DNA from: Olsenella sp. An293
GTDB lineage: Bacteria > Actinomycetota > Coriobacteriia > Coriobacteriales > Atopobiaceae
Assembly (NCBI RefSeq): GCF_002159495.1
Contig: NZ_NFIT01000011.1
Span: 1 to 64,000, forward strand
Direction of reading: 5' to 3'
Length of the DNA: 64,000 nt
In this document: positions 2,334-52,342 of the stretch, one piece after another
Layout of the letters: each line of letters starts with the position of its first letter
Position numbering within the stretch: position 1 is the stretch's first letter
Notes under the pieces: generated by a model
What the model saw: the letters and a program-made list of their open reading frames with translations, nothing else
What the model was told of the DNA's origin: nothing
The model's database searches: none
Made by a program: the position numbers and the translations under genes

Positions 2334-2372
2334 CCGTGTCTGCTATGCTCAAGCTGCGCGAAAGGGGGAGCG

Positions 2373-2938: not shown

Positions 2939-2950
2939 GTCACGCTCTGC

Positions 2951-2956
2951 TAGGAT
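2951..2956 (+). promoter_or_regulatory. -10 box of a probable leaderless kinase mRNA
   Basis: TGCTAGGAT (extended -10, hexamer TAGGAT) is followed by exactly six bases, GGGCGC, then the kinase ATG at 2963. No Shine-Dalgarno fits between them. Transcription starting about 7 nt after the -10 would begin at or next to the ATG, so leaderless translation is the simplest reading. Confidence 0.5.
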
Positions 2957-2962
2957 GGGCGC

Positions 2963-4231
2963 ATGGACACCAACGACGAACTTGCCTCCTATCTCGACGC
3001 CCTCGCGCGCGACGACTGCTACCGCGTTGACGCGGTGCTCAAGGACAGCGCGCTCGAGACTACCGAGCGCGTGTTCTTTCGCGGCGAGAACGGCTCCGAG
3101 CTGGGGCCCTTCGTTCGCAAGCGCATCCGTGGCGAATCCGGGCTGGGCGGCGCCTACGAGGAGGTCTTCTCGGCGCAGGCCCGTGGCGTGAGGCTCGCGC
3201 ACCTGCCGCGCCTGCTCGAGTGCCACCGGCGCGACGGCGACCTCGTGGTGGTGATGGAACTGGTCCCGGGCCAGACGCTCGCCGAGCACGTGGAGGCGTG
3301 CAAGGGGCCGGCGGCGCGCCTCGAGCTTTCGCGCCGCGTCTTTCCCGAGCTCTGCGACGCCGTGAGCGAGCTTCACGAGCGCCTGGGCCCTCCGGTGATC
3401 CACCGTGACCTCAAGCCGAGCAACGTCATGGTGTCAGAGGGCGGCGTCACCCTCATCGACCTGGGGATCGCGCGGTCCTACCGCGCGGGCGCCGAGCAGG
3501 ACACCACGCACTTTGGCACGCGCTCCTACGCCCCGCCCGAGCAGTTTGGCTTTGGGCAGACCGGCGTGACGAGCGACGTCTTTGCGCTGGGAATGATGCT
3601 GTTCTTCTGCGTGACCGGTCGCGAGCCGGGGACGGCGGACCGCGAGGCGGGCTTTACCGCGGCCGGGGTGCCGGAGGCGCTGCGGGCCGTGATCGTTTGG
3701 GCGACGCAGCTCGATCCCGCGGCGCGCTTTGCGACTGCTCGGGAGCTCCGGGACGCGTTTCTCGCCACGCAGGGCGCGGCTGGGAGCGTCGCGGCGACGG
3801 AGCTTGAGCCGCCGACCTTTGAGTCCTCGCACCGCTTTCGTCTTGCGATCCCGGGGCTCCCCGAAAGCTGGGGGAGTGCCGGGCGCTGGGCGTGGCTCGG
3901 GCGCGTGCCGGCCCGGGCGGGGGTCGCCTGGAACGTGCTGGTGCTGTGCGGGCTTGCGATCGTGCTCGCGGGGTGCGTGGTCGCCTACGTGAGGCCCATG
4001 CCCTCGGTGAGCTCCTACCCGCGCTGGCTGCAAGCGGCCTCGTACCTCGTGGTGATGCCGATCATGGCTCTGACCTGCGGCTACCTGCTGCTTGACCGAC
4101 GACCGCTGCGCCGGCGCGTGCCCGCGCTCGCGGGACTGACCGTTCGCCAAGAGGTGCGCTGGGGGCTGCGAGTCCTTCTCGGCGTCTTTCTTGCGTGGGT
4201 CGTCCTGCTGGGTGTTGGCGTGTCGGGCTAG
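2963..4231 (+). CDS. Membrane-anchored Ser/Thr protein kinase
   Basis: 422 aa. The Hanks-type kinase domain covers ~1-275: catalytic loop HRDLKPSN (~147-154), metal-binding DLG in place of DFG (LIDLGIAR, ~166), activation-segment end GTRSYAPPEQF, and DVFALG. The ATP-binding N-lobe is short and its glycine loop is hard to see. The C-terminal third holds three hydrophobic helices (~318-340, 348-370, 395-420) with no PASTA or other sensor domain, so the kinase is cytoplasmic and tethered. It has no visible ribosome site (see the -10 box entry). It ends 4 bp from the convergent HAD gene. Confidence 0.85.
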   Translation: MDTNDELASYLDALARDDCYRVDAVLKDSALETTERVFFRGENGSELGPFVRKRIRGESGLGGAYEEVFSAQARGVRLAHLPRLLECHRRDGDLVVVMELVPGQTLAEHVEACKGPAARLELSRRVFPELCDAVSELHERLGPPVIHRDLKPSNVMVSEGGVTLIDLGIARSYRAGAEQDTTHFGTRSYAPPEQFGFGQTGVTSDVFALGMMLFFCVTGREPGTADREAGFTAAGVPEALRAVIVWATQLDPAARFATARELRDAFLATQGAAGSVAATELEPPTFESSHRFRLAIPGLPESWGSAGRWAWLGRVPARAGVAWNVLVLCGLAIVLAGCVVAYVRPMPSVSSYPRWLQAASYLVVMPIMALTCGYLLLDRRPLRRRVPALAGLTVRQEVRWGLRVLLGVFLAWVVLLGVGVSG

Positions 4232-5015: not shown

Positions 5016-5198
5016 ATGTCACGTTTCAGTCCATATTACTGTTGGTTCAGAAGCGAGATCCGGGCACTTATCGAAGACTGCCGGTCTTGCGAGCTTGGAG
5101 ACTGTCCCAACTGGTGCAAGGAGTTCGTCGAGCTTCAGATGGACGAGATCCTCGATACGATAATCTCGGCAGTTCAAAACTGGGGACAGATAGGCTGA
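5016..5198 (+). CDS. Small Cys-rich protein at the edge of the low-GC island
   Basis: 60 aa from ATG 5016, chosen because GAGGAGG (5002-5008) sits 7 nt upstream; an in-frame ATG at 4941 lacks such a site. Four cysteines cluster as CRSCELGDCPNWC, a possible metal-binding knuckle, followed by a helical tail. It lies 59 bp before the helicase gene on the same strand and has similar lower-GC composition, so the two may be co-transcribed. I recognise no family; function unknown. Confidence 0.5.
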   Translation: MSRFSPYYCWFRSEIRALIEDCRSCELGDCPNWCKEFVELQMDEILDTIISAVQNWGQIG

Positions 5199-5257
5199 GA
5201 CCGCACTTATCGCGTTTGCTATCCTGGCAATGTGGTGCCATTTCCAGGAGGCGTGCG

Positions 5258-8215
5258 ATGGATGAGATTCGTGTCGTTGAGGCGGAGGCCGTCTCCGGTC
5301 CGTCAGAGCGGGAGAACTTTGAGCGCGGTCTTCGAGCCGGCTTTGTTGATGTGTCGGAAAAGGTCTCCGAGAGGTTTCTTCCTCGACTGATAGCCAACGA
5401 CAAAAGAACCGGAAGCGACCTTCTTACGACGATCAAGCGGCAGCTCTCCAAGTGTGACCGCTTCGACATCTGCGTCGCTTTTGTCTCGGAAAGTGGGCTT
5501 CAGCCGCTGGTGGAGATTCTCTCCGAGCTCGAAAAGCGCGACGTTTGCGGCCGTGTTCTCACCTCGACTTATCTCAACTTCAACTCACCTGACGTATTTC
5601 GAAAGCTGCTCGGCTATCGAAATATCTCCACTCGTGTCTATCAGGGAAACCTCCACGCAAAGGGATATGTATTCGATCGTGGCGATACGAGTACCGTTAT
5701 TGTTGGAAGTTCCAATCTCACGCAGATGGCTCTCACGTGTAACCGTGAATGGAACATTATGTTCCGATCCTACGGTGAGGGTGGTCTGCTCCTTTCGCTA
5801 CGTAATGAGTTTGAGGACCTCTGGGAAGACGGACTGACGTCCGAGATTACTGAGGCATGGATCGAAGGATACGAGACGTCCCGTTCTTCGCAGAAAAGGC
5901 AGCCTTCACACGCGACGTTTAGAGCAAATCCGTCACCTACGGCAGAGTATGACGGAGAGATTCGTCCCAATCAGATGCAGCGATCCGCTCTTGAAGCTCT
6001 CGCTAAACTTCACGAGCGAAATGAGCCACGTGCGCTTCTCGTTTCTGCTACGGGCACGGGGAAGACCTACTTGTCCGCCTTTGATATCGCCGCTGTCAAG
6101 CCGAGGCGCGTTCTCTTTCTGGCGCACAGGCAACGAATCATAGATGCGTCACGTCGGAGTTACCAGAGGCTGCTCGGTACGTCATACAGCTGCTGTGCGT
6201 ATGTTCCCGGGGCAGGTGACGCAGGAGAGAGTTGCGTCTTTGCCATGTGCTCAACCATCGTAAGGCATCTCGATGAGTTTTCGCGTGATGCATTTGACTA
6301 CATCGTGATCGACGAAGCTCACCGAACGGGATCAGGCGGCTATCAGAAAATCATGGATTACTTCACGCCTAAGTTCTATCTGGGCATGACCGCGACTCCA
6401 ACGAGAACCGACGGCTACGACGTCTTTGCACTCTTCAATCATGTGATTGCATTTCAAATTACACTGCAGGATGCTCTTGCTAACGACATGCTTGCGCCAT
6501 TTCATTACTTTGGTATCGCCGATCTGAGGATTGACGATGAGGACATCGACGACCCCACGTTCTTTTCCCGGCTGACATCGTCGGAGCGTGTTAAACACAT
6601 CACGTCAAAAATCGAGCAGTATACCGTTGGCAGGAGCCATCGGCGAGGACTTGTTTTCTGCAATAGGAACGACGAGGCTGCAGAGCTCTCTCGACAATTA
6701 AACGAGCTGGGATATAGGACATGTGCCTTGAGCGGCAAGAACTCTGATGAGGAGAGGGATGCGGCAATCGCAAGGCTTGAGGCGGGGGAGCTTGAGTATA
6801 TCTTCTCCGTCGATATCTTTAATGAGGGTGTTGATATCCCATCACTCAATCAGATCGTCATGTTGCGACGTACGGAGTCGGCGATTGTCTTTGTGCAGCA
6901 ACTGGGTCGTGGGCTGAGGAAGAGTGAAGGCAAGGATTACGCGCTGGTACTTGATTTCATCGGGAACTATCAAAAGAACTTCTTTGTTCCCATAGCTCTG
7001 TCGGGAGACCGATCTTACAACAAGGATACGCTGCGGGCTATTGTCAAGGAAGGGAGCTCGGTAATTCCGGGATGCTCCACGGTGAGCTTTGACAAGATCT
7101 CCGAAGCGAGAATCTATGAAGCCATCGACGGAGGTGATTTCAGCGCTGCGAGGCTCTTACGCGATGAGTATAGAAGCTTGAGGCAAATGCTCGGTCGGAT
7201 ACCCTCGCTCAGCGAGTTTGACGCGAATGGATCTATTGATCCCTTGCGTATTTTCAAAAAGTTCGGCTCCTACCATGCTTTTCTTCAAAAGTATGAATCG
7301 GAATATACGGTCACGTTTTCTAGCCGTCAGGAAGGCGTCCTTAAGTTCATCTCCCAGAAGCTTGCAAGCGGCAAACAGCTGGAAGATCTCCTGCTGCTCA
7401 AGCGACTCATTCTTGGGGAGAGCCAGGTTGAGGAGGAGGCATCTTCTTTTGAACGTTTTTATGACGGTCGAACGCTCGAGGAAGCCCGACACTCCGCGAT
7501 TTCTCTCCTGAGCGGTTCTTTCTTGACGCTCAAAGGGTTTGTCCCCTTGGTGCGAGAGGTCGGAGACGCCTGCGTTCTGTCGGAAGAGTTTGCCAAGATG
7601 TTGGGGGACGTCGAGTTCAAGCGGCAAGTTCTTGAGGCTGTCGACTTCGGTCTCGAAAGGCATCGCCTTGCGTATCAAAGGCCCTACCGAAGCACCAACC
7701 TCGTCCTTAATGCGAAATACACCTATGAAGAGGTCTGTTACCTGCTTAATTGGGAAAAGAACGTGAACGGACAAAACATCGGAGGCTACAAGTACGACGA
7801 CAAGACAAAAACCTTCCCCGTCTTTATCAACTACGAGAAGGATCCGGACATCTCGGACACGACGAAGTACGAGGATCGATTCATCTCAAATCATGAGCTC
7901 ATTGCAATTTCAAAGCAGTCGCGCCATCTAGATTCCAAAGAAATCGAGCGTATTCGCCAGTGCCCTGGAAACGGAATGAAACCATACCTGTTTGTTCGCA
8001 AGAACAAAAATGACGGTGACGGTAGCAAGGAGTTTTATTTTCTGGGTGAGATGCGGCCGACAGGTGAGTTTAGGGAGTTCATCATGCCTGGCACCACCAA
8101 ATCGGCGGTGGAGATCACCTATGAGCTAATGGATCCAGTCCGCCAAGACCTGTATGACTACCTAACCAGCAACATTGAACTTCTCGAAGAAAAGGAGGAG
8201 CAGGTGGGCGTTTAG
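5258..8215 (+). CDS. PLD-nuclease / superfamily II helicase / DUF3427 protein
   Basis: 985 aa, ATG 5258 after CAGGAGG. The N-terminal ~200 residues form a phospholipase-D-like domain with HAKGYVFD (HxKxxxxD, His at ~133) and GSSNLT. The helicase follows: Walker A ATGTGKT (~264), DEAH (VIDEAHRTG, ~353), TATPTRTDG, and motif VI QQLGRGLRKSEGK. The C-terminal ~380 residues match DUF3427 in length and in motifs such as NVNGQNIGGYKYD. One PLD motif implies a dimeric nuclease site. Base composition is clearly lower in GC than either flank, which suggests transfer. The Nudix gene overlaps its stop by 4 nt on the opposite strand. A role in DNA repair or phage defence is inference. Confidence 0.85.
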   Translation: MDEIRVVEAEAVSGPSERENFERGLRAGFVDVSEKVSERFLPRLIANDKRTGSDLLTTIKRQLSKCDRFDICVAFVSESGLQPLVEILSELEKRDVCGRVLTSTYLNFNSPDVFRKLLGYRNISTRVYQGNLHAKGYVFDRGDTSTVIVGSSNLTQMALTCNREWNIMFRSYGEGGLLLSLRNEFEDLWEDGLTSEITEAWIEGYETSRSSQKRQPSHATFRANPSPTAEYDGEIRPNQMQRSALEALAKLHERNEPRALLVSATGTGKTYLSAFDIAAVKPRRVLFLAHRQRIIDASRRSYQRLLGTSYSCCAYVPGAGDAGESCVFAMCSTIVRHLDEFSRDAFDYIVIDEAHRTGSGGYQKIMDYFTPKFYLGMTATPTRTDGYDVFALFNHVIAFQITLQDALANDMLAPFHYFGIADLRIDDEDIDDPTFFSRLTSSERVKHITSKIEQYTVGRSHRRGLVFCNRNDEAAELSRQLNELGYRTCALSGKNSDEERDAAIARLEAGELEYIFSVDIFNEGVDIPSLNQIVMLRRTESAIVFVQQLGRGLRKSEGKDYALVLDFIGNYQKNFFVPIALSGDRSYNKDTLRAIVKEGSSVIPGCSTVSFDKISEARIYEAIDGGDFSAARLLRDEYRSLRQMLGRIPSLSEFDANGSIDPLRIFKKFGSYHAFLQKYESEYTVTFSSRQEGVLKFISQKLASGKQLEDLLLLKRLILGESQVEEEASSFERFYDGRTLEEARHSAISLLSGSFLTLKGFVPLVREVGDACVLSEEFAKMLGDVEFKRQVLEAVDFGLERHRLAYQRPYRSTNLVLNAKYTYEEVCYLLNWEKNVNGQNIGGYKYDDKTKTFPVFINYEKDPDISDTTKYEDRFISNHELIAISKQSRHLDSKEIERIRQCPGNGMKPYLFVRKNKNDGDGSKEFYFLGEMRPTGEFREFIMPGTTKSAVEITYELMDPVRQDLYDYLTSNIELLEEKEEQVGV

Positions 8216-8687: not shown

Positions 8688-8764
8688 CTCGGGCGACCAC
8701 GCACAACGGCCATTGTGAGCGTTAACATCCGCTCAAAAATGGGCGACGTGCGTGGTCGCCCGAG
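8688..8764. repeat. Covarying hairpin element, copy 1
   Basis: Perfect 17-bp arms: CTCGGGCGACCACGCAC (8688-8704) and its complement (8748-8764). An inner stem TGAGCG/CGCTCA sits at 8716-8735. The same layout recurs at 34924-34992 and 36014-36082, where the stem reads GACCTCGCAC and the opposite strand changes to match. The rest of 8605-8881 holds only weak promoter-like sequence. Confidence 0.8.
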
Positions 8765-14156: not shown

Positions 14157-14167
14157 CCGTCGCGGGC

Positions 14168-14282
14168 ATTCAAAAGGGGACGGGCTTTCTGCTAATTGGG
14201 GACGTGTTATTTCGTGCAGACGGAAAGCGTCTGCACGAAATAACACGTCCCCAATTAGCAGAAAGCCCGTCCCCCTTTGAAT
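14168..14282. repeat. Giant hairpin: 55-bp arms, 5-nt loop
   Basis: Arms at 14168-14222 and 14228-14282 are complementary at 54 of 55 positions, with loop GAAAG. They contain GGGGACGTGTTATTTCGTGC, shared with the palindrome at 21424-21524. It lies between convergent purF-like and amrS genes, where it could stop transcription from both sides. One stop-proximal end abuts the amrS stop codon. Confidence 0.9.
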
Positions 14283-14284
14283 GG

Positions 14285-16599: not shown

Positions 16600-16627
16600 G
16601 CGATCACCTCCGGGTGACGATAGCGTC

Positions 16628-16662
16628 AGCTTGACAATATCGTCAGGTTAAATCGTCAAGCT
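16628..16662. repeat. TTGACA palindrome family, single unit
   Basis: AGCTTGAC/GTCAAGCT arms frame ATCGTCAGGTTAAATC. It is the most divergent copy of the TTGACAAT-N-CGTCAGGTTA-N-TTGTCAA unit, and lies in the 114-bp gap between the divergent Memo-AMMECR1 and YdcF-like genes. Confidence 0.7.
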
Positions 16663-16713
16663 GGGCAGGTAAGATGTGCCCAACCGGTCGGTATTTGCCC
16701 GCGGGAGGTTCAC

Positions 16714-21403: not shown

Positions 21404-21423
21404 GGTCTCTCTTTCTGTCGTTT

Positions 21424-21524
21424 GGGGACGTGTTTTTTCGTGCAGACCGTTTGGGACAGGTTAGCGGCGTGCGGGCCGGGCCTCAGGGCTGTCCCAAACG
21501 GTCTGCACGAAATAACACGTCCCC
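21424..21524. repeat. Long palindrome, 36-bp arms (GGGGACGTG family)
   Basis: Arms 21424-21459 and 21489-21524 match at 35 of 36 positions. The outer part shares GGGGACGTG and TTTCGTGCAGAC with the giant hairpin at 14168-14282. The 29-nt loop contains a GGGCCGGGCCT stretch. It sits between the stop of yfbR and the start of trmB, both on the minus strand. Confidence 0.9.
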
Positions 21525-21535
21525 TTTGTGCAGAG

Positions 21536-22251: not shown

Positions 22252-22280
22252 TTGACAATATAACCTGACGTGATTGTCAA
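22252..22280. repeat. TTGACA palindrome family, single unit
   Basis: A clean 29-bp unit: TTGACAATATAACCTGACG then TGATTGTCAA. A further GTTGACAA begins at 22239. It lies 8 bp past the stop of the pyrophosphatase gene, in the 141-bp gap behind yfbR. Confidence 0.85.
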
Positions 22281-22288
22281 GTTTCAGG

Positions 22289-23956
22289 CTAGTCGAGGTC
22301 CTCCTGGATGCTCTGCAGCGTCGCCATGAGGGCGGGAATGACCTGCTTCTTGCGGCTCACGATGCCCGGCAGCTTGGCGATGCCGTCCGCCGGCTCGGCG
22401 TCGAAGGCGCGCGCGATGATGTTCTCGGCGCCCTCGCCGTACCACATGATCTCGCTCGAGGAGCTCTTGACGTCCGTGAACAGGTAGAACACGAGCGGCA
22501 GCTCCTCTTGGCGCGCGGCCTCGGAGAGGTAGGGCCCCACGAGCTCCTCGGCGGCCTTGCGGCTGCGCTCGGTCATGTAACTGCCCTGGCCCACGCCAAA
22601 CTTGACGTTGCCGCGGCTGAATATCTTGAAGTCGCCGCCAAAGACCTCCTCGGCGGTGCGCCCGGTGAGGTCGGCGCCGGCCTCGAACATCTCGTCGGCG
22701 TAGGCGTCGATGTCGACCTCGGCGATCTTGGCGAGCGCGGCGGCGGTGTCGCGGTCGATCTGCGTGCAGGTGGGGGAGCGGAACGCCAGCGTGTCCGAGA
22801 GGATGGCCGAGAGCATGAGCCCCGCGACGTCCTTGGGGATCTCCACGCCGTTCTCGCGATACATCATGTAGACGATCGTGCAGGTGCAGCCCACGGGCAT
22901 GTTGCGGAAGTACGCCGGGCTCGCGGTCTCGATCGAGCCGATGCGGTGGTGGTCGATGATCTCCATGATCTCGGCCTGCTCGAGGCCCTCGACCGACTGC
23001 GAGCGCTCGTTGTGGTCAACGAGGATGACGTGCTTCTTCTTGGCCGCAAGCAGGTTGGGCGAGCTCACGAGGCCCACGTAGTGGCTCTGCTCGTCGATGA
23101 CGGGGAAGAAGCGGTGGCGGGAGTGCGCCATCATCTTGCGGGCGTCGTCCACCGCGGTGTTGACGCTCACCTTGAGGATGCCCTCGGAGAGCATCTTGGC
23201 GCGCACGGGGATGGACATGGAGATGATGCGGGCGGCCGCGTAGGTGTCGTAGGGGGTGGTGATGATCGCGCAGCCGTGGCGCTCGGCCGAGGCGATGACC
23301 TTGCTCGAGACATGCGCGCTGCAGCAGATCACCAGGCAGCTCGCGTCGCACTCGACGGCAAACTGCTGGGTCTCGTAGCGGTTGGTCACGAGCACGATGT
23401 CGCCGGGGTGGACGGAGTCCTCCATCATCTCGGGCGTGGTGCCCACGCAGACGTTGCCGCCCGTGACGCGCGCGGTGGGATCGCCGAGCAGCATCTCTCC
23501 CTTGAGGGTGTCGATGATGTTGGCGTAGCAGGTGTGCGCGCTGCCGATGACGCCGCTGTCAAAGACGTCCATGTTGGCGTTGGCGATGTCCTTGACGGCG
23601 ATGATGCCCTGGAGGTTGTTCTCGTCGTCGGTGATGCAGAGCGTGTCGGTCTTGCTCTCGCGCATGAGGTTCCACGCCGAGAAGAGGCTCATCTCGCCGT
23701 CGATGCCGCCCTGGCGCTGGATCTCGGTGTCTTTGATCTGCGGGGTGACGGAGGTGATGAGCTCGGGCTCGGCAAAGCCAAAGTGGTCGAGCACGAAGGC
23801 CGTCTCGCGGTTGATCGCGCCGGCGCGGCGCGGCTGGTAGATGTCGGTCTTCTCTACGGCGTTCTTGAGGTGCGCGTATGCAATGGCCGAGCAGATGCTG
23901 TCCGTGTCCGGGTGCAGGTGCCCGATGACGTTTACTTTGCGAATCCCTTCAGGCAT
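22289..23956 (-). CDS. ppaC: Family II (Mn-dependent) inorganic pyrophosphatase with CBS-DRTGG regulatory insert
   Basis: 555 aa; ATG 23956 (MPEGIRKVNVIGHLHPDTDS) has AAGGGG upstream. DHH-family metal motifs: GHLHPDTDS, then VDHNERSQ and IDHHRIG, and the DHHA2 end SRKKQVIPAL. A CBS pair and a DRTGG domain are inserted between motifs (~75-300: TLCITDDENNLQGIIAVKDI, then HRFFPVIDEQSHYVGLVS). Such inserts bind adenine nucleotides and regulate activity. Hydrolyses PPi, which is notable beside a PPi-dependent phosphofructokinase in the same window. Confidence 0.95.
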   Translation of the reverse strand: MPEGIRKVNVIGHLHPDTDSICSAIAYAHLKNAVEKTDIYQPRRAGAINRETAFVLDHFGFAEPELITSVTPQIKDTEIQRQGGIDGEMSLFSAWNLMRESKTDTLCITDDENNLQGIIAVKDIANANMDVFDSGVIGSAHTCYANIIDTLKGEMLLGDPTARVTGGNVCVGTTPEMMEDSVHPGDIVLVTNRYETQQFAVECDASCLVICCSAHVSSKVIASAERHGCAIITTPYDTYAAARIISMSIPVRAKMLSEGILKVSVNTAVDDARKMMAHSRHRFFPVIDEQSHYVGLVSSPNLLAAKKKHVILVDHNERSQSVEGLEQAEIMEIIDHHRIGSIETASPAYFRNMPVGCTCTIVYMMYRENGVEIPKDVAGLMLSAILSDTLAFRSPTCTQIDRDTAAALAKIAEVDIDAYADEMFEAGADLTGRTAEEVFGGDFKIFSRGNVKFGVGQGSYMTERSRKAAEELVGPYLSEAARQEELPLVFYLFTDVKSSSSEIMWYGEGAENIIARAFDAEPADGIAKLPGIVSRKKQVIPALMATLQSIQEDLD

Positions 23957-29979: not shown

Positions 29980-29989
29980 TGCGACAATG

Positions 29990-30022
29990 GGTTGACAATC
30001 ACGTCAGGTTAGATTGTCAACC
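29990..30022. repeat. TTGACA palindrome family, single unit
   Basis: GGTTGACAATCACGTCAGG then TTAGATTGTCAACC, 10-bp perfect arms. It is preceded by TGCGACAATGG, a flank also seen at 47912-47922. It sits 20 bp before the CPBP start codon, partly where a promoter would be expected. Confidence 0.85.
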
Positions 30023-30041
30023 TGTCGCAGGGGAGGTTCGC

Positions 30042-33024: not shown

Positions 33025-34029
33025 TTAGCGCGGCATGCGGTCGTGGTTGATGGGCTGGTAGAAGAGGCGGGCGACCTCGGCGGGGTCGTGCGTCTGGCCG
33101 AGCGCCCACATGGTCTTGGCGACGAGGGCTTCGGTCGACATGTCGTCGCCCTTGAGAATGCCGTCCTTCTCGGCGTAGGCGTGGCCGACCTCGTAGACGC
33201 CGAGGTCGAGGCCCTCTTCGGGGACCTGCGTGGTCACGACGAGGGTTCGCCCGGAGTCGACCCAGTCAAAGATCGCGCGCTGATAGGAGCCGTCGTAGGC
33301 GGGAATGCCGCCGATGCCAAAGGTCTCGAGGATGACGGCGTCGTAGTCGCGGCGCAGCAGGTCGAAGATACTCGGGCGCAGCTCAGGGGTGAGCTTGAGC
33401 ACGATGACGCGCTCGTTCAGGGTCTCGTAGAAGCGCGGGCTGGCGCCGGTCTTCTCGGCGGAGGGGGCGCCCGCGGGGCGGACGATGCGGTTGCCGCGAA
33501 TGTAGGCGACTGAAGGGTAGTTCATGCTCGTGAAGGCGTTGAAGCTCATGGTGCGCTGCTTGTGGGCGCGGGTGCCGCAGATGACCTTGCCGCCAAAGAC
33601 CACGTTGACGTCGCGGCTGTCGTCATCGCAGGCATAGAGCACACTGTGGTAGATGTTGAGCTTGGCGTCGGTGAAGGGGTTGGCCATGGGCTGCTGCGAG
33701 CCCGTGAGGACGATGGGCTTCTCGCTCGCCTGGATGAGGTAGGAGAGCGCCGCGGCGGTGTAGGCCATCGTGTCCGTGCCATGGAGGATCACGAAGCCGT
33801 CGTAGGCGTCGTACGCGTTGCGGACGACCTGCGCGATCTCGACCCAGTCGCGCGGGCGCATGTTGGTGCTGTCGATATTCATGGGCTGAACAAAGTCCAG
33901 CTCGCAGAGGGTGTCGAGGAGCGGGACCTGACGGGCGAGCTCAGGGCCGGTCATGGTGGGCGCCAGTCCGGAGCCGTCCTCGGTCGAGGCGATGGTGCCG
34001 CCGGTGGCGATCATGAGGATGTGCTTCAC
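33025..34029 (-). CDS. ansA: L-asparaginase, type I (cytoplasmic)
   Basis: 334 aa; GTG start 34029 overlaps the stop of the upstream HAD gene (GTGA). First catalytic motif ATGGTIAS with its nucleophile Thr, second motif ILHGTDTMAYTA with the Thr-Asp pair. YTGSQ-type VLTGSQQPM and the C-terminal VVTTQVPEEGLDL fit the AnsA/type I group. No signal peptide, so it acts in the cytosol to release aspartate and ammonia. Confidence 0.94.
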   Translation of the reverse strand: MKHILMIATGGTIASTEDGSGLAPTMTGPELARQVPLLDTLCELDFVQPMNIDSTNMRPRDWVEIAQVVRNAYDAYDGFVILHGTDTMAYTAAALSYLIQASEKPIVLTGSQQPMANPFTDAKLNIYHSVLYACDDDSRDVNVVFGGKVICGTRAHKQRTMSFNAFTSMNYPSVAYIRGNRIVRPAGAPSAEKTGASPRFYETLNERVIVLKLTPELRPSIFDLLRRDYDAVILETFGIGGIPAYDGSYQRAIFDWVDSGRTLVVTTQVPEEGLDLGVYEVGHAYAEKDGILKGDDMSTEALVAKTMWALGQTHDPAEVARLFYQPINHDRMPR

Positions 34030-34856
34030 GCGCGCTCGCCTCCTAGCAGGAATCGGCGGATGGCCTCGGCGCAGCCATCGTGGTCGTTGTCCGCGACGAC
34101 GACGTCGGCCACCGCGCGCGCCTCCTCGGTCGCGTTGCCCATCGCGATGCCGAGACCGGCGACGCTCAGCATGGGCAGGTCGTTCTCCGCGTCGCCCACG
34201 GCGATCGTGGCCTCGCGGGGGATGCCGAGCAGTTGCGCGAGCGCGAGGAGCCCCGAGCCCTTGGTCGCCCCGGCGGGGGAGAGCTCCAGGCTTGCGTCCT
34301 CGGACTCTGCGAGCTCGACGGGGAGGTCCCTCAGGCGCTCGCGGGCGATCGGGCGCGAAGCTGGGTCGGCGAAGTGGAAGATGAACTTCTGAACGGAGGT
34401 TGCGGGGTCCAGGAGCCTTTCGCGGACGTTCTCGACGGGCGTGGACGTCGCGTCGTAGAGTCCCCGGTAGATGCCCATACGATAGTGGTCCATGCGAGCG
34501 AGGTCCGTTGTCTGGCAGTACATTTCGGCACCGGAGAAGACGTCGATCATGGCGTCTGCGGCGCCGACGGCGCGCACGGCGCGCGTGATGACTTCGTGGT
34601 CAAACGACGTGGTGGAGAGGACGCGGTGCTCCCTCAGGTCGTAGAGCACGGTGCCGTTGCAGCAGATGGCGTAACGAACCTGTCCGAAGCTGGCGTGATC
34701 GAGCTCGATCATCTTGGGGCTACGACCCGAGCAGATGGCGACGTCCTTGCCTGCCGCGACGGCCTCGTCGATGGCCTGCGTCGAGGACGGAAGCACGCGC
34801 TTGCTGGTGTCGAGCAGCGTCCCATCCATGTCGAAGGCGATGAGCTGGTAGTCCAC
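34026..34856 (-). CDS. Cof-type HAD phosphatase
   Basis: 276 aa. GTG 34856 is chosen (VDYQLIAFDMDGT) because GAGAGGAGAGAC precedes it; an ATG 33 nt upstream lacks a site. HAD motifs: FDMDGTLLD, CSGRSP, Lys in ATKGSG and VGDAENDLPML. The type IIB cap and the KGSGLLALAQLLG motif identify the Cof/YbjI group, phosphatases for sugar phosphates, FMN or PLP-like substrates. Translationally coupled to asparaginase. Confidence 0.92.
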   Translation of the reverse strand: MDYQLIAFDMDGTLLDTSKRVLPSSTQAIDEAVAAGKDVAICSGRSPKMIELDHASFGQVRYAICCNGTVLYDLREHRVLSTTSFDHEVITRAVRAVGAADAMIDVFSGAEMYCQTTDLARMDHYRMGIYRGLYDATSTPVENVRERLLDPATSVQKFIFHFADPASRPIARERLRDLPVELAESEDASLELSPAGATKGSGLLALAQLLGIPREATIAVGDAENDLPMLSVAGLGIAMGNATEEARAVADVVVADNDHDGCAEAIRRFLLGGERA

Positions 34857-34923
34857 GTCTCTCCTCTCGATTGAACCAGGGGAAAGCATACCGCGACGGA
34901 GTCGCGCGGTGCCATGTCTCGCA

Positions 34924-34992
34924 GGCGACCTCGCACGACGCCCATTTTGACACCACTATTTGGGTCAAAAAGGGGCAACGTGCGAGGTCGCC
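34924..34992. repeat. Covarying hairpin element, copy 2
   Basis: Arms GGCGACCTCGCAC (34924-34936) and GTGCGAGGTCGCC (34980-34992) are perfect. The inner part CCCATTTTGAC pairs with GTCAAAAAGGGG. It lies 87 bp before the DUF559-like gene; copy 3 follows that gene. The remaining DNA to 35078 is AT-rich, with TATAGT at 35062-35067 as a possible -10. Confidence 0.85.
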
Positions 34993-35078
34993 AAACGGAC
35001 CGCCCGCCTTATGCGTAAAGAAGAGATTGGAATAAAAACAATCTTGAATAGGAAGAGGATATATAGTATTACTTAGTT

Positions 35079-36014
35079 ATGATAACGCTAACGGACATAT
35101 CTGCACTAAGATTATGGGCTCACGAAGGGCTTCTCGAGCGGCTCGGGAATCCCTGTCAGGCAAATGGGCTCAACTGGACGACGGATTCATTCAGGGAGAT
35201 TCAAGACTTTGGCCTCGAATCCATGGGCGTTGCCTATTCTCATGAGGATCCGCTTCACGTACTCGTCGACGACGCAGGGCACAGAATTGTCTCTGCGCGG
35301 GTGAATAGCCACGTTTGGTCAGGGAGGCTCCCTCCGGGATCTCTCTATCAGCTTGCTCCAGGCGTACTCATTGCCTCACCGGCGTTTTGCTGCCTTCAGG
35401 ATGCCGTGAGGTCAAGTCTGCCCCATGTGACCGCGACCATGATGGAATGCCTGGGAAGGTACGGTAGGGTGACGGGAACGAGGGGGTTTCTCGACCGCGG
35501 TCCACTGCTCAGTTACGATGAGCTCTCGAGCTACCTTGCCAGCGCGAAGGGGTGTCGGGGGGTGGAAAAGGCTCGACGCGCTCTCAGGCTGTCAGTGTCC
35601 CCAACGCGTTCCCCGCTCGAGACAAAGACGGTGCTCATAGCCACGTTATCTAGAAAGTTGGGAGGCTATGGGTTGCCGCGGCCAGAGGTGAACTACGTGA
35701 TTGCGCCGCGGTCCGAGGATATCCCCTTCAGCCAGTTTGCCCAATACGAGGTGGACGTCTGCTGGCCCTCGCAGAGAACAATCCTTGAGGTCGATAGCTA
35801 TCTTTACCACTCAGATTCCGAGCAGATTAACTCGGACGCAAAGAAGCGCAACTCGCTCAAAAGCATGGGGTGGAAAGTCATATCTGTGACGGATGGACAG
35901 CTTTCCGGCGACACGCTAGACGTGCTCATGCGGCAGGTGGCGAAAGACCTTAAAGTGCGCCTCAAGGCTCCGAAGCCGGAGCTGAGAGACTGGCTTCTTG
36001 AAGAGCTGCCATAG
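35079..36014 (+). CDS. DUF559-like putative endonuclease, lower-GC gene
   Basis: 311 aa. The C-terminal ~100 residues have a restriction-endonuclease-like pattern: YEVDVCWPSQRTILEVDSYL (D...ExD), followed by YHSDSEQINSDAKKRNSLKS and a GWKVISVT strand, as in DUF559/Vsr-like proteins. The N-terminal part (LRLWAHEGLLERLG, LPPGSLYQLAPGVLIASPAF) resembles the AbiEi-type or similar proteins common as orphans in this group. GC content is lower than the flanks, and two copies of one hairpin repeat frame the gene. No ribosome site is strong. Nuclease activity is inference. Confidence 0.65.
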   Translation: MITLTDISALRLWAHEGLLERLGNPCQANGLNWTTDSFREIQDFGLESMGVAYSHEDPLHVLVDDAGHRIVSARVNSHVWSGRLPPGSLYQLAPGVLIASPAFCCLQDAVRSSLPHVTATMMECLGRYGRVTGTRGFLDRGPLLSYDELSSYLASAKGCRGVEKARRALRLSVSPTRSPLETKTVLIATLSRKLGGYGLPRPEVNYVIAPRSEDIPFSQFAQYEVDVCWPSQRTILEVDSYLYHSDSEQINSDAKKRNSLKSMGWKVISVTDGQLSGDTLDVLMRQVAKDLKVRLKAPKPELRDWLLEELP

Positions 36015-36082
36015 GAGACCTCGCACGACGCCCATTTTGATGCCCGGATTGGGGTCGAAAAGAGGCGACGTGCGAGGTGGCC
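36014..36082. repeat. Covarying hairpin element, copy 3
   Basis: ACCTCGCAC (36018-36026) pairs with GTGCGAGGT (36070-36078). GACGCCCATTTTGA is identical to copy 2. The DUF559-like stop codon overlaps its first base, and the DUF1846 stop lies 4 bp beyond. Confidence 0.8.
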
Positions 36083-36085
36083 GGA

Positions 36086-37567
36086 TTAGCGGTGGTAGTA
36101 GCCGCGGCGCTCGTACTTGGGCTCGCAGCAGACGTTGATGCCGAGGTTGCGGTAGGTGTTCTTGTCCTGCTCGGAGATGATGACCGAGAAGTAGGCGTCG
36201 CAGCCGGCGAGCTGCTCGAGCGCATCGACCGTCGCCTCGGCCTGGTCGTTGGTCGCGGAGGAGAGGGAGAGCGCGATGAGCATCTCGTCGGAGTGCAGGC
36301 GCGGGTTGCGGCTGCGCAGGTGCTCGGTCTTGAGGTGGCAGATCGGCACGAGCGCCTCCTCGCTCACCACGTAGGTCTTCTTGGGGATGCCCGCCATGTG
36401 CTTGGCGGCGTTGAGCAGAAGCGACGCCGCGGCGCCCATGAGGTCGGAGGTCTTGCCGGTCACGAGCTCGCCGTCGGGAAGGACCATCGCTGCGGCGGGG
36501 CCGCCGGTGGCCTCCTCCTTGGCGAGCGCCGCCTGGTGCGCGGGGGAGTAGTCGCTCGTGACGTCCGCCTGGCTCATGAGCAGCTCGATCTTGGCGAGCG
36601 CGTCCGCGCCCTCGCCGGTGCGGCGCAGCTCCTCGGCCGCGGTGAAGTAGCGGCGGACGATCTCGTTTCGGCCGGCCTCGCGGCAGACCTCGTCGTCGGA
36701 GATGCACAGGCCCACCATGTTGACGCCCATGTCGGTGGGGGACTGGTAGGGGCTCTCGCCGGCGATCTTCTCCATCATGGCCTTGAGCACGGGGAACGTC
36801 TCGACGTCACGGTTGTAGTTGACCGTGACCTCGCCGTAGGCCTCGAGGTGCCAGGGGTCGATGATGTTGCGGTCGTCGAGGTCGGCCGTGGCGGCCTCGT
36901 AGGCGACGTTGACGGGGTGCTTGAGCGGCAGGTTCCACACCGGGAAGGTCTCGTACTTGGCGTAGCCCGCCGTAACGCCCCGCTTGTTCTCGTGATAGAG
37001 CTGGCTGAGGCAGGTGGCAAGCTTGCCCGAGCCGGGGCCGGGCGCGGTCACCACGACGAGCGGGCGCGTGGTCTCGATGTAGTCGTTCTTGCCAAAGCCC
37101 TCGTCGGAGACGATGTGGTTGACGTCAGAGGGGTAGCCGTCGATGAGGTAGTGGCGCCAGGAGCGCACGCCCATGCCCTCGAGGCGGCGCTGGAAGGCCT
37201 CGGCGTGGGGCTGCCCGGTGAAGTGCGTGATGCAGATGCCGCCGACCATGAGGCCGCGCGCGCGGAACGAGTCCATGAGGCGCAGCGCGTCCTCCTCGTA
37301 GGTGATGCCGATGTCGGAGCGGCGCTTGGCGTTCTCGATGTTGTCCGCGTTGATGACGATGATGGCCTCGACGTCGTCCTTGAGGCTCTCGAGCATGCGA
37401 ATCTTGGAGTCGGGCTCAAAGCCGGGAAGCACGCGGCTCGCGTGGTAGTCGTCAAAGAGCTTGCCGCCAAACTCGAGGTAGAGCTTGCCGCCAAACTGTC
37501 CTATGCGCTTGCGGATCTTCTCTGCCTGCAGGGCGATGTACTTGTCGTTGTCAAATCCGATGCGCAT
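36086..37567 (-). CDS. DUF1846 family protein
   Basis: 493 aa, the full family length. Hallmarks: MRIGFDNDKYIALQAEKIRK, LYLEFGGKLFDDYHASRVLP, VVTAPGPGSGKLATCLSQLY (a nucleotide-binding-like Gly-rich loop) and GYAKYETFPVWNLPL. DUF1846 structures show a multi-domain P-loop-like fold, but no activity is established to my knowledge; the family is common in anaerobes and lactic acid bacteria. Alone on its transcript. Confidence 0.93.
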   Translation of the reverse strand: MRIGFDNDKYIALQAEKIRKRIGQFGGKLYLEFGGKLFDDYHASRVLPGFEPDSKIRMLESLKDDVEAIIVINADNIENAKRRSDIGITYEEDALRLMDSFRARGLMVGGICITHFTGQPHAEAFQRRLEGMGVRSWRHYLIDGYPSDVNHIVSDEGFGKNDYIETTRPLVVVTAPGPGSGKLATCLSQLYHENKRGVTAGYAKYETFPVWNLPLKHPVNVAYEAATADLDDRNIIDPWHLEAYGEVTVNYNRDVETFPVLKAMMEKIAGESPYQSPTDMGVNMVGLCISDDEVCREAGRNEIVRRYFTAAEELRRTGEGADALAKIELLMSQADVTSDYSPAHQAALAKEEATGGPAAAMVLPDGELVTGKTSDLMGAAASLLLNAAKHMAGIPKKTYVVSEEALVPICHLKTEHLRSRNPRLHSDEMLIALSLSSATNDQAEATVDALEQLAGCDAYFSVIISEQDKNTYRNLGINVCCEPKYERRGYYHR

Positions 37568-41164: not shown

Positions 41165-41173
41165 CAGATCCGT

Positions 41174-41286
41174 GGGGCCGGCAGCGGCGTCAGGGTTGAC
41201 AGTGGCGTCAGGTCATATTGTCAAACCGCGAGCTTTTGACAATATGACCTGACGCCACTGTCAACCCTGACGCCGCTGCCGGCCCC
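41174..41286. repeat. TTGACA family: perfect 52-bp-arm palindrome
   Basis: Arms 41174-41225 and 41235-41286 are perfect complements around a 9-nt loop (CCGCGAGCT). Each arm carries GGCGTCAGGG followed by TTGACAGTGGCGTCAGG and TCATATTGTCAA. It lies between convergent GNAT and cysE genes and could act as a two-way terminator. Confidence 0.92.
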
Positions 41287-41295
41287 GCGAGGTCC

Positions 41296-43421: not shown

Positions 43422-43510
43422 TCGCGTCGGGTTGACAATCACGTCAGGTTATATTGTCAAACCGCGGGCGCTTGACAATATAACCTGACGTGATTGTCAA
43501 CCCGACGCGA
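43422..43510. repeat. TTGACA family: perfect 39-bp-arm palindrome
   Basis: Arms 43422-43460 and 43472-43510 pair perfectly around an 11-nt loop (ACCGCGGGCGC). Each arm: TCGCGTCGGG, then TTGACAATCACGTCAGG, then TTATATTGTCAA. It lies just upstream of pth2 and downstream of the cation transporter. Confidence 0.92.
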
Positions 43511-43521
43511 CTGTCAACCTA

Positions 43522-47083: not shown

Positions 47084-47926
47084 GTGATCAAGCTCGTTCT
47101 CTCCGATCTGGACTCCACCCTCATCTGGCGCGACGACCACGTCGTCACGCCCTTCGCGCTGGATGCCATCCACGAGCTTCAGGCGGCGGGCGTTCACTTC
47201 GTGCCCTGCACGGGGCGCATCTTCCGCGACCTCCCCCGCATGTTCGCGGGCGACGAGGCCGCCTGCGCGACGGCGGTGACAAGCAACGGGCAGCTCGTCT
47301 ACCTCAACGGCGAGCTCGTCGAGCGCGTGCCGATCGACCACGAGGGCCTTCTCGCCACCGTGTCCGCCCTGCGCGACGTGGACGACGCCTATCTCGTGGT
47401 CGAGTACGACGGCGAGAAGGTCGCCGTCGACGCCGACCTCGACTTCGTGCTCGCCCATCCGGACAACTTCTGGAGCGTCGCTCAGGCCCTGTCGGACGTC
47501 CCGGAGGAGCCCTGCTACAAGGCGAACGTGCGTGTGGTGGGCAGCTTCGGGCGCTGCCAGGAGGTCGCGGCGGAGCTCGCCTGCGCCCTCCCCGAGCTCG
47601 ACTTCGTCTGCCCCATGCCGGGCACCCCGCACATCGACATCACGCCCCACGGCTTTGGCAAGGACCACGGCGGCGACTTTCTCATGGAGCGCCTGGGGCT
47701 TGCGCCCGAGGAGGTCTGCTGCTTCGGCGACGCCGAGAACGACCTCGCGGTGCTTCGCCACTACGCCAACTCCGTGGCCGTCGCCAACGCCGTTGCCGTG
47801 GTGCGCGAGACCGCGCGCTATCACATCGGCCCCGCCGACGAGGAATCCGTGGCTCGCGCCCTTCTCGACATCGCGGCGTCCACGCGGGCCGGGAGAATGC
47901 CGGCGTTCATGTGCGACAATGGGTAA
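47084..47926 (+). CDS. Cof-like HAD hydrolase
   Basis: 280 aa from GTG 47084 (VIKLVLSDLDSTL), with GAAGGGA upstream. HAD motifs: SDLDSTLIW (Ser replaces the usual Gly), PCTGRIF, Lys in FGKDHGGDFLMERLG and CFGDAENDLAVL. Type IIB cap as in Cof phosphatases. The C-terminal residues MCDNG and the stop fall in TGCGACAATGGG, a sequence that also precedes another TTGACA repeat at 29981, so the gene's end appears to be supplied by the repeat. Confidence 0.88.
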   Translation: MIKLVLSDLDSTLIWRDDHVVTPFALDAIHELQAAGVHFVPCTGRIFRDLPRMFAGDEAACATAVTSNGQLVYLNGELVERVPIDHEGLLATVSALRDVDDAYLVVEYDGEKVAVDADLDFVLAHPDNFWSVAQALSDVPEEPCYKANVRVVGSFGRCQEVAAELACALPELDFVCPMPGTPHIDITPHGFGKDHGGDFLMERLGLAPEEVCCFGDAENDLAVLRHYANSVAVANAVAVVRETARYHIGPADEESVARALLDIAASTRAGRMPAFMCDNG

Positions 47927-47928
47927 TG

Positions 47929-47994
47929 GGTTGACAATCTCGTCAGGTTATATTGTCACAGGGTTGACAATATAACCTGACGAGATTGTCAACC
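47929..47994. repeat. TTGACA family: perfect 30-bp-arm palindrome
   Basis: Arms 47929-47958 and 47965-47994 pair perfectly (GGTTGACAATCTCGTCAGG...), loop CAGGGT. A further partial unit TGACGTGACTGTCAACC ends at 48012, 16 bp before metF. Confidence 0.92.
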
Positions 47995-48027
47995 TGACGT
48001 GACTGTCAACCGCGGAGGGAGCGACTC

Positions 48028-49714: not shown

Positions 49715-52180
49715 ATGACGGCAGAGAAGAACCTGCGCGCGCGGCGCGTGCGCGACGAGCGACTGGCGGCCGTGCTGCGCGGTGAGGAGCTGCTGCTGTT
49801 TGACGGTGCCATGGGCACGCAGCTGCAGGAGCGCGGCCTTGCCGCCGGCGAGCTGCCCGAGCTGCTGTGCCTCACGGACCCGGAGAAGATCTCCGAGGTC
49901 CATGCGGCCTACGTCGCCGCCGGCGCCGACGTGGTCACCACCAACACCTTCGGCGCCAACGCGACCAAGCTCGGCGACGCCGCGAACGTCGAGGAGGTCT
50001 TCGCGGCTGCCGTCTCCTGCGCCCGCGCCGCCCGCCCGCGCTACGTGGCGGCCGACATCGGGCCCACGGGACAGCTCCTCGAGCCCATGGGCACCCTCGC
50101 CTTCGACGACGCCTACGAGCTCTTTGCCCGCCAGGTGCGCGCCGCGGACGCCGCGGGCGCGGACCTCTTCGTGATCGAGACCATGGCGGACCTCGCGGAG
50201 GCCAAGGCGGCCCTGCTCGCGGTGCGCGAGAACTCCGACCTGCCGGCCTTCGTCACCATGACCTTCCAGGAGGACGGTCGCACGTTCCTGGGCACCACGC
50301 CTGAGGTCGCCGCCGTCACGCTCTCCTCGCTCGGCGCCGACGCCGTGGGCATCAACTGCTCGCTCGGCCCGCGCGACGTGGCCCCGCTCGTGGAGCGCAT
50401 GCTGCCGTGGACGAGCTGCCCGGTGATGGCTCAGGCAAACGCCGGCCTGCCGCGCGTCGTGGACGGCGAGACCCGCTACGACGTGGGGCCCGAGGAGTTT
50501 GCCGTCTGCGTGGCCGACATGCTCGACGCGGGCGTGGGCGTCGTGGGCGGGTGCTGCGGGACCACGCCCGCGCACGTGGCGGCCCTGCGCGCGCTGCTCG
50601 ACGTTCGTCGGCCGGCGCCGCGCTCCCTGCGGGACTGCCTCACCGTGGCGGGTCCGCAGCGGCTCGTCGCGCTGGCGCCCGGCCAGGTGGGCGTCATCGG
50701 CGAGCGCATCAACCCCACGGGCAAGCGCAAGATGAAGGAGGCCCTGCGCTCGGGCAACCACGACCACGTGATCGCCGAGGCCATGGCACAGGAGCGCGCC
50801 GGCGCCCAGATCCTCGACGTCAACGCCGGCCTGCCCGAGATCGACGAGCGCGCCGTCATGTGCCGCCTGGTCTCGGAGCTGCTCTCGGTGACCACGCTGC
50901 CCCTGCAGATCGACTCCTCGGACCCGGCCGTCGTGGAGGCCGCCGTCCGCAGCTACCCGGGCAAGCCGCTCGTGAACTCCGTCAACGGCAAGGCGGAGTC
51001 GCTCGCCTCCGTGGTGCCCCTGGCCGCGCGCTACGGCTGCGCGCTCGTGGGCCTCACGCTCGACGAGGACGGCATTCCGCCCACGGCGCAGGGACGGCTC
51101 GCGGTGGCGCGCAAGATCGTCGCCGCCACGGACGCCGCCGGCATCCCGCGCCCAGACGTGGCGATCGACTGCCTCGCCATGGCCGCCTCCACCGACCAGA
51201 CGGCGCCGCGCGCGATTCTGGACGCCATCCGACTCGTGAAGGCGGAGCTGCCCGGCGTGCGCACGGTGCTCGGCGTCTCAAACATCAGCTTTGGCCTGCC
51301 CTTCCGACCGCTGCTCAACGCGACGTTTCTGGCGGCCGCCTTCGGGGCCGGCCTCGACCTCGCGATCATCAACCCCGGCGTGCGCCGCATGATGGACGTC
51401 GTCGACTCCTGGCGCGCGCTCTCGGGGGAGGACGAGCGGGCGCGCTTCTACGTGGAGCACTATGCGGACCGCTCGGACGCGCCGGCCGCGGCGTCCTCGG
51501 CGGGCGAGAAGAACGTCGAGCCCGCGACTGCGCCCGCGCCCGCCGGGCTTCTTGAGGACCCGGTTGAGCGCGCTCGGGCGCTCGTGCTCGACGGCCGCGC
51601 GGAGCCCATGGCAAGCGCCATGTCCGAGGTCCTTCTCGCCCACGACGCGCTCTTTGCGATCAACGAGGTGCTGGTGCCGGCCCTCGACGAGGTGGGTCGG
51701 CGCTTTGAGGCGGGGACGTTTTTCCTGCCGCAGCTCATGGCCTCGGCCGAGGCCGCCAAGGCGGGCTTCGAGACCATCCGCGCCGCCGCCGGGCCCGGGG
51801 ACGCCTCCGCGGGCAAGGGCGAGGTCGTCGTCTGCACCGTGCGCGGCGACATTCACGACATCGGCAAGAACATCGTCCGGATGCTGCTCGAGAACTACGG
51901 CTTCGACGTGATCGACCTCGGGCGCGACGTGGACCCGGAGGTGGTGGTCCGCACCGTGGAGGAGCGCCACGTGCGTCTGGTGGGGCTCTCGGCCCTCATG
52001 ACCACGACGGTGCCGGCCATGGCCGAGACCATCGAGCTTCTGCGCGAGCGGGCGCCCTGGTGCAAGGTCGTGGTGGGAGGCGCCGTGCTCACGCCCGAGT
52101 ACGCCCAGATGGTCGGCGCGGACTTCTACGCCAAGGACGCCACCGAGACCGCCCGCATCGCCGAGCAGGTCCTTGGTTGA
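49715..52180 (+). CDS. metH: Cobalamin-dependent methionine synthase, without activation domain
   Basis: 821 aa; ATG 49715 after GGGAGG. Domains in order: homocysteine-binding (DGAMGTQLQERG, zinc ligands in GINCSLGP and GGCCGTTPAH), folate-binding (GERINPTGKRKMKEAL, then VNSVNGK and NISFGLPFRPLLN), cap, and B12-binding with RGDIHDIGKN (cobalt-ligating His, ~711). The chain ends after the B12 domain; activation is supplied by the gene upstream. A linker at ~597 (ASSAGEKNVEPATAP) carries a TTCTCGCC octamer. The stop TGA lies within the first GGTTGACAGTC repeat. Confidence 0.96.
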   Translation: MTAEKNLRARRVRDERLAAVLRGEELLLFDGAMGTQLQERGLAAGELPELLCLTDPEKISEVHAAYVAAGADVVTTNTFGANATKLGDAANVEEVFAAAVSCARAARPRYVAADIGPTGQLLEPMGTLAFDDAYELFARQVRAADAAGADLFVIETMADLAEAKAALLAVRENSDLPAFVTMTFQEDGRTFLGTTPEVAAVTLSSLGADAVGINCSLGPRDVAPLVERMLPWTSCPVMAQANAGLPRVVDGETRYDVGPEEFAVCVADMLDAGVGVVGGCCGTTPAHVAALRALLDVRRPAPRSLRDCLTVAGPQRLVALAPGQVGVIGERINPTGKRKMKEALRSGNHDHVIAEAMAQERAGAQILDVNAGLPEIDERAVMCRLVSELLSVTTLPLQIDSSDPAVVEAAVRSYPGKPLVNSVNGKAESLASVVPLAARYGCALVGLTLDEDGIPPTAQGRLAVARKIVAATDAAGIPRPDVAIDCLAMAASTDQTAPRAILDAIRLVKAELPGVRTVLGVSNISFGLPFRPLLNATFLAAAFGAGLDLAIINPGVRRMMDVVDSWRALSGEDERARFYVEHYADRSDAPAAASSAGEKNVEPATAPAPAGLLEDPVERARALVLDGRAEPMASAMSEVLLAHDALFAINEVLVPALDEVGRRFEAGTFFLPQLMASAEAAKAGFETIRAAAGPGDASAGKGEVVVCTVRGDIHDIGKNIVRMLLENYGFDVIDLGRDVDPEVVVRTVEERHVRLVGLSALMTTTVPAMAETIELLRERAPWCKVVVGGAVLTPEYAQMVGADFYAKDATETARIAEQVLG

Positions 52181-52305
52181 CAGTCTCGTCAGGGGTTGAC
52201 AGTCTCGTCAGGGGTTGACAGTCTCGTCAGGTTATATTGTCAACCTTTGTCAAGGTTGACAATATAACCTGACGAGACTGTCAACCCCTGACGAGACTGT
52301 CAACC
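52175..52305. repeat. TTGACA family: three tandem units and a perfect 54-bp-arm palindrome
   Basis: GGTTGACAGTCTCGTCAGG is repeated in tandem at 52175, 52194 and 52213. Arms 52194-52247 and 52252-52305 are perfect complements with a 4-nt loop. The largest member of the family; its first unit supplies the metH stop codon. Confidence 0.93.
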
Positions 52306-52311
52306 CTGGCT

Positions 52312-52342
52312 CTGTCAATTGGGGGCTGTCCCCAATTGACAG
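52312..52342. terminator. 13-bp palindrome CTGTCAATTGGGG
   Basis: Perfect arms 52312-52324 and 52330-52342, loop GCTGT. Directly follows the TTGACA array and may close the methionine transcript. The rest of the gap to 52478 holds CTTATCTGACTATG and no clear promoter. Confidence 0.6.

Follow-up and report, generated by a model that had tools for sequence, protein, structure and literature searches.

Within the window, the 64,000-nucleotide stretch of the Olsenella sp. An293 genome analysed here, a putative nuclease gene lies between two hairpins, and a third copy of the hairpin stands elsewhere (Table 1). What ties this gene to its hairpins? The original prediction read the arrangement as a cassette and all three hairpins as marks of acquired DNA, so that the hairpin might be an insertion hotspot or part of the mobility mechanism.

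Table 1. Features of the nuclease locus and its hairpins, in positions of the window.
Feature	Position	Strand	Description
Third hairpin copy	8691-8760	+	Dispersed, upstream of arsC; its stem word is a variant
HAD hydrolase gene	34026-34889	-	Borders the insertion site
Hairpin upstream of nuclease gene	34923-34992	+	Cognate, 65-bp core, stem word CCTCGCACGACGCC; between the HAD-like and nuclease genes (divergent)
Nuclease gene	35079-36014	+	311 aa; predicted AbiEi-like (residues 1-173) and Vsr / I-Bth0305I-like nuclease (residues 176-293) domains
Hairpin downstream of nuclease gene	36013-36082	+	Cognate; starts at the nuclease stop codon
DUF1846 gene	36086-37567	-	Borders the insertion site

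The three hairpins of the window are in register. Those on both sides of the gene had been called nearly identical. They are real, and their near-identity is limited to the stem ends: compared with the copy at 34923, the other flanking copy is 84% and the copy at 8691 71% identical. The predicted covariation is borne out, as eleven copies from three genomes form a gap-free alignment of 69 columns in which a change on both sides is seen at least once in 7 of 23 consensus pairs. Likewise, the GC content is indeed lower over the gene, with 0.55 at 35001-36000; leaving out 5-9 kb, all other 1-kb steps range from 0.61 to 0.75. The window has no Rfam match and no tRNA. All three folds are very stable relative to shuffled sequences (z -11.7, -5.8 and -12.4; 0 of 200 shuffles as good), and both the downstream hairpin and the hairpin at a second site described below adjoin stop codons, as would be expected of transcription terminators or RNA elements kept for their folding. 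This reading appears extremely improbable, as the copies at 34924 and 8692 sit between divergent genes, and termination leaves unexplained the species-specific words common to the nuclease flanks.

The encoded protein is predicted to join an AbiEi-like domain to a nuclease of the Vsr / I-Bth0305I type. It had been described as a DUF559-like putative nuclease. Over the last third of the ORF, DUF559 (PF04480) matches with E 1e-3 and 19.4 bits, under the curated cut-off of 20.6, and MTES_1575 with E 2e-4 and 21.7 bits (cut-off 38.2); the nuclease part of the description fits the predicted fold. At E<=0.01, 21 of 27 aligned relatives match MTES_1575 and 12 match DUF559; NCBIfam gave no match for the protein. 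An AlphaFold2 model built from the 27-sequence alignment has a mean pLDDT of 92.6. Foldseek alone returned nothing at E<=0.001, its top rank being Toxoplasma mitoribosomal chains at TM 0.25. A second structure aligner, the source of all Z values given here, matched the predicted fold of residues 176-293 to the catalytic domain of I-Bth0305I (3r3p, Z 10.9), to ngo0050 (3hrl, Z 9.5) and to Vsr (1cw0, Z 8.8) over 91-97 residues; two Toxoplasma mitoribosomal chains equal Vsr at Z 8.8, and TnsA follows at Z 6.7. Residues 1-173 align with residues 68-195 of AbiEi (6y8q) over 117 residues at 3.8 Å and Z 7.5, which lies under the aligner's own mark for a firm match, Z 8. A profile match to I-Bth0305I had an E value of 0.023. 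All 27 aligned relatives share five residues, E181, D226, E237, H244 and D253, which we take to be catalytic.

I-Bth0305I, the closest solved fold to the nuclease domain, is an intron-associated homing enzyme whose PDB name is 'mobile intron protein'. In contrast, the present nuclease gene is flanked by repeats. The very-short-patch endonucleases of the Vsr / DUF559 kind share the nuclease fold (1cw0, 3hrl), but here the fold comes with an N-terminal AbiEi-like domain, flanking palindromes and no conserved methyltransferase neighbour. Unlike the AbiEi antitoxin of type IV toxin-antitoxin systems, to which the N-terminal domain aligns, the protein is a nuclease fusion, and the neighbours at the conserved site are a HAD hydrolase and DUF1846 rather than an AbiEii toxin.

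AbiEi is described in PMC3985639 as part of a phage-resistance system, and the sole PADLOC match of the protein is a weak one to 'HEase' (E 6e-4). Both would suit a defence or self/non-self module, with the nuclease directed at incoming DNA and the dispersed palindromes serving as marks or decoys. We consider such a module quite improbable, given that the flanking pair and the copy numbers within genomes resemble mobile palindromes and that the conserved neighbours are those just named. A tblastn search of 50,697 phage records found no relative of the nuclease, which bears little either way; one scan of genome contigs found two relatives, in an Atopobiaceae MAG and in Olsenella sp. An285.

The two neighbours allow the insertion site to be followed through the genus, as both were matched in 31 of 31 genomes (in G030, as a partial DUF1846). 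The gene with its hairpin(s) is present in 18 of these genomes, An293 included, and 12 have the neighbours close together with neither the gene nor this hairpin; G030, whose nuclease site is broken by contig ends, is undecidable. Where the nuclease gene is present, the gap between HAD and DUF1846 measures ∼1.2-1.3 kb (15 genomes); for G015, G026 and G002, the nuclease lies beside DUF1846 by coordinates, in G026 at a distance of ∼2 kb. Where the gene is absent, the gap is -28 to 51 bases in 10 of 12 genomes, 228 in G020 and 269 in G014, and none of the 12 gaps holds the focal hairpin. Because the site occurs in an occupied and a close-neighbour state, hairpin, gene and hairpin represent a single inserted or lost unit, which agrees with the cassette-like behaviour originally proposed. 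An empty allele, as homing endonucleases have, is thus present in 12 of 31 genomes. The gap in G020:C30 (L247) carries an unrelated inverted repeat, GTCACAGCT..CGTCCGG, and no nuclease gene.

A gene present in relatives without hairpins, which would have told against the original prediction, was not found. The downstream palindrome is clear in 18 of 18 orthologues (score 11.5-14) and the upstream one, in the same score range, in 15 of the 17 that have upstream sequence. The remaining two upstream hairpins, in G013 (7.5) and G005 (8.5), are degenerate and score at the level of hairpin-free regions (7-10), yet they bear the word of their partner. This outer stem word varies by species (CCTCGCACGACGCC, CCGCGCATACCTCCC, CCATACGTACCCGTCA, CCATACAACACCCC and CCATACCCGAACGCC). 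When upstream and downstream hairpins are compared between genomes, 14 of 17 find their best match in the partner from their own genome, and for the remaining three that partner takes second or third rank; none of 100,000 permutations did as well. Across the 17 orthologues, word similarity follows the identity of the N-terminal domain with the C-terminal domain held (partial r 0.41, 0 of 5,000), versus a partial r of 0.04 (P 0.33) for the C-terminal domain with the N-terminal domain held. The N-terminal domain is therefore a candidate reader of the stem word, as a lead and not a proof, and the palindrome sequence appears to coevolve with the nuclease, with shared descent partly controlled. A generic hotspot for varied cargo is not supported: the enclosed gene comes from a single nuclease family, and the hairpin word is particular to the lineage of the nuclease. 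Of the cassette idea, the single unit stands; its hairpin belongs to the nuclease.

The nuclease is one of a large family, matched in 97 of 120 relatives, with 4-12 matches per genome of the genus. In the An293 genome, nine stretches match at E<=0.001, and two of them are parts of one gene. To compare flanks, we scored loci for at least 3 shared 11-mers between the two 400-bp flanks, a threshold reached by 47 of the 73 loci of the family and by 6 of 98 mechanical control ORFs from the same loci. It is passed, by subtraction, in 12 of 17 orthologues and in 35 of 56 other family loci; 26 of the 73 fall below it. The 73 loci, which comprise best family hits and most paralogues of a few genomes rather than a random draw, are what remains of 86 after removal of 10 duplicates, L073 and L094 (hit misplaced) and one short flank; L037 (a duplicate of L086) and L046 (at a contig edge) are left out. 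In other genera, with one high-ranking hit taken from each and picked away from contig ends, 8 of 20 family loci pass and 12 of 20 do not, versus 1 of 25 controls. Read by eye, four paralogues of the An293 genome carry differing words on both sides (GGGTATGTACAC, GTTGTAGGCAGTTTTT, CCAAACTCCACACGTGGTG and TTTTGTACGGCGA), and two more have a palindrome on one side only; five nuclease-word pairs are seen in this genome. At one paralogue, L045 (G034), the flanks hold CGCACAAGTC 12 times, and eight upstream copies at 31-bp spacing form an array, not a single hairpin. Several family members (e.g. L042, L044, L067) stand beside palindromic elements of ∼95 bp, here called group B, which enclose either the pair CTTCTCGC / GCGAGAAG or a GAGAAGAAC piece.

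Dispersal was followed for three words and for the focal hairpin itself. For the latter, a covariance model built from G000 (An293), G006 and G012, and so favouring the focal word and these three genomes, found matches in 22 of 31 genomes at E<=0.01. The 20 matches in the An293 genome correspond to 11 places, because most appear on both strands; one of these places is a 36-base match only. Genomes with an orthologue have a median of 4.5 matches versus 1 in those without (P 0.009, with G030 counted among the latter), and these counts may be low, as 150 of ∼1,600-3,000 candidates per genome were scored. The gene context of the dispersed copies could not be taken from mechanical ORFs, since spurious long ones abound at this GC content. 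Copies bearing the word of the genome's own nuclease occur in G016, G008, G012, G013, G018, G026 and G028, alongside other words; dispersed copies thus often, but not always, carry the genome's own word.

The three words, for which a reversed-pattern control gave one match over the pooled searches, are distributed unevenly among the 31 genomes. Exact copies of ACCATACAACACC number 15 in G015, where it is the nuclease word, 9 in G009 and 0 in the other 29; the G009 copies carry the word of G015, not that of the G009 orthologue. The C word, GGGTACGTACAC, is found 115 times in G029, 22 in G021, 21 in G011, 19 in G002, 14 in G022, 12 in G017, 8 in G026, 2 in G004 and once in G014, with none in 22 genomes. 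The T word, GGGTATGTACAC, which is the flank word of a second An293 paralogue, has 116 copies in G016, 80 in An293 (35 places), 69 in G018, 58 in G006, 27 in G009, 17 in G013, 16 in G025, 11 in G014, 1-7 in ten others and none in 13. The C and T words differ by one base, and the genomes in which each abounds form separate sets; four genomes hold both, none with at least 8 of each. Beside nucleases, the C word is found in G021, G022, G029 and G026 (in the last, upstream only), and its listed places bracket the nuclease coordinate in G022, G011 and G029 and lie on one side in G002 and G026. The T word flanks nucleases on both sides in G000, G016, G018 and G014 and upstream only in G006. It is absent beside all eight placed family loci of G025, despite the 16 copies in that genome; in G009 and G013, which also hold copies, two family loci each were examined.

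Two hairpin sites at fixed positions show how words change. At site 1, the third copy of Table 1, the loop is common to G000, G006, G016 and G018 (25-28 of 31), and the arms differ (8-12 of 16), with the exception of one identical arm: in G018, one arm is that of G016 and the other is in G018's own word. These arm differences are a change in place. By eye, G015, G009 and G008 have hairpins there with words like their own, and G020 has its group-B word. The original prediction had tied this copy to the neighbouring low-GC island. It is not bound to the island, given that three relatives (G006, G016 and G018) retain a hairpin with this loop at the site upstream of arsC. The island itself (5042-8215) encodes a PLDc, ResIII helicase and DUF3427 protein and a NUDIX gene. 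Read by eye, the gene beside the hairpin differs in G006 and G016, and in G006, G016, G002 and G012 a different gene upstream of arsC reads like the end of a cytosine methyltransferase; the arsC site may therefore be a place of gene exchange.

At site 2 (C3:81427 of the An293 assembly), 15 of 29 genomes have a hairpin and the other 14 lack one. This was judged partly by eye: G028 scores 9.5, within the background range, and still reads as a hairpin, and G017, G019 and G011, which score 12-14 on other palindromes, were counted as absent. It occurs in 12 of 18 genomes with an orthologue versus 3 of 11 without (Fisher P 0.06), the three being G001, G010 and G030, the last with its broken nuclease site. 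In 7 of the 12 genomes, the flank of the own nuclease is the best or tied match to the site 2 hairpin. In G000, the own flank comes second (18), after the almost identical word of G006 (20); in G012 it is also second, but weakly so (7 vs 14 for G013), and in G006, G022 and G028 it ranks sixth to tenth. The hairpins of G006, G012 and G028 match another genome's word, and that of G022 matches its own poorly. None of 100,000 permutations reaches the observed sum of own matches. The Mantel r is 0.37 (P 0.006), and the partial r is 0.29 (P 0.015) with neighbour-gene identity held, by a test that handles shared descent imperfectly.

Such changes bring in the main rival explanation, a network of binding sites in which the protein is a regulator or chromosome-maintenance factor on dispersed operator or structural sites; binding would select the words, and nothing would move. 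The kept loop with differing arms at site 1, and the single G018 arm per word, read well as stepwise change in place, and AbiEi antitoxins are reported in PMC7319586 to bind inverted repeats. Arm changes in place, however, fit spread of the palindromes as well, and it is spread that is favoured by the presence and absence of the site 2 hairpin and by a palindrome copy number that ranges widely between genomes. Furthermore, the cassette itself is an insertion or loss, and the protein keeps an invariant nuclease centre. We regard a non-mobile network as unlikely.

The flanked architecture recurs across paralogues and species, the cassette is present or absent as a whole, and word and nuclease lineage change together. 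The pairing of nuclease and palindrome is well supported. In the REPtron, as described in PMC8266576 and PMC3733652, an enzyme gene is bordered by palindromes, palindromes of the same family are dispersed in the genome, and enzyme and palindrome coevolve. The present nuclease resembles this in all three respects, being flanked by palindromes that are dispersed in the same genome and that coevolve with it. We propose that the pair probably works like a REPtron, with a metal-dependent nuclease in place of the HUH transposase, and we infer that the nuclease drives the spread of the palindromes. The protein would bind the stem word, probably mainly by its N-terminal domain, and the Vsr-type domain would nick or cut the palindrome as a duplex, a cruciform or a folded single strand. 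Repair or copying could then spread palindromes to new places and rewrite old ones. Dispersed copies would follow the current nuclease, with older words persisting as relics, and the nuclease gene would ride between two palindrome copies.

Could the hairpins instead be REPs mobilised by a RAYT (Y1/HUH) transposase, with the nuclease gene as a passenger? Most genomes of the genus (28 of 31) do carry Y1_Tnp genes, and that of An293 has two, away from the nuclease gene. However, one of these RAYTs (C34:111178) is flanked by another palindrome of the window, TTGACAATAT..CCTGACG, the second by GGGGACAGTCCCC palindromes, and the focal word was not found in 3.0-3.5 kb around either. Y1_Tnp has no match in G026, a single contig that is 99% complete, and still this genome holds three dispersed hairpins whose word is that of its nuclease or close to it. 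Word identity, moreover, follows the nuclease. Mobilisation by RAYTs is accordingly very improbable for these hairpins. Because the An293 RAYTs have other palindromes, and because G026 keeps its hairpins without Y1_Tnp, ordinary REPtrons and nuclease pairs appear to coexist.

The second palindrome family of the window (GTTGACAATATAACCTGACG...) resembles a classical REP family, because it flanks the RAYT at C34:111178. Its copies lie at 16611-16671, 22252-22299, 29989-30032, 41171-41289, 43422-43519, 47923-48011 and 52166-52314.

We do not class the nuclease system as a REPtron, because a HUH tyrosine transposase encoded between the palindromes defines that class, and the enzyme here is AbiEi-Vsr-like. 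In further contrast to REPtrons, the hairpins have no constant GTAG tag that could be seen by eye, several nuclease paralogues with different words share a genome, and both An293 RAYTs have other palindromes beside them. Among the open-access literature matches listed, no paper joins this AbiEi-Vsr protein type with flanking or dispersed palindromes. The family looks like an enzyme not known for such a job in the role of mobilising palindromes.

On a broader scale, and tentatively, since we hold it at somewhat less than an even chance, Coriobacteriia may possess a class of mobile palindromes powered by AbiEi-Vsr nucleases and not by HUH transposases, with several independent nuclease-word pairs per genome and words rewritten across the genus. 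Such a class, if real, would add a new mechanism of spread and, with the target words standing next to the genes, form a natural set of re-targeted DNA-binding nucleases. Several times per genome, a second, unrelated enzyme family here occupies the position of a RAYT. Many nuclease-target pairs may be obtained from it, and part of the 'DUF559 / MTES_1575' family gains a suggested function. As the target word is readable beside many nuclease genes, word recognition, retargeting and spread are directly testable.

A third family of long palindromes (GGGGACGTGTTATTTCGTGCAGAC) is also present in the window. Its 17- and 23-base words are absent from seven paralogue loci of the An293 genome, and a 10-base piece occurs once, at L069. 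The copies, at 14167-14283 and 21411-21534, have arms that are 97-98% complementary.
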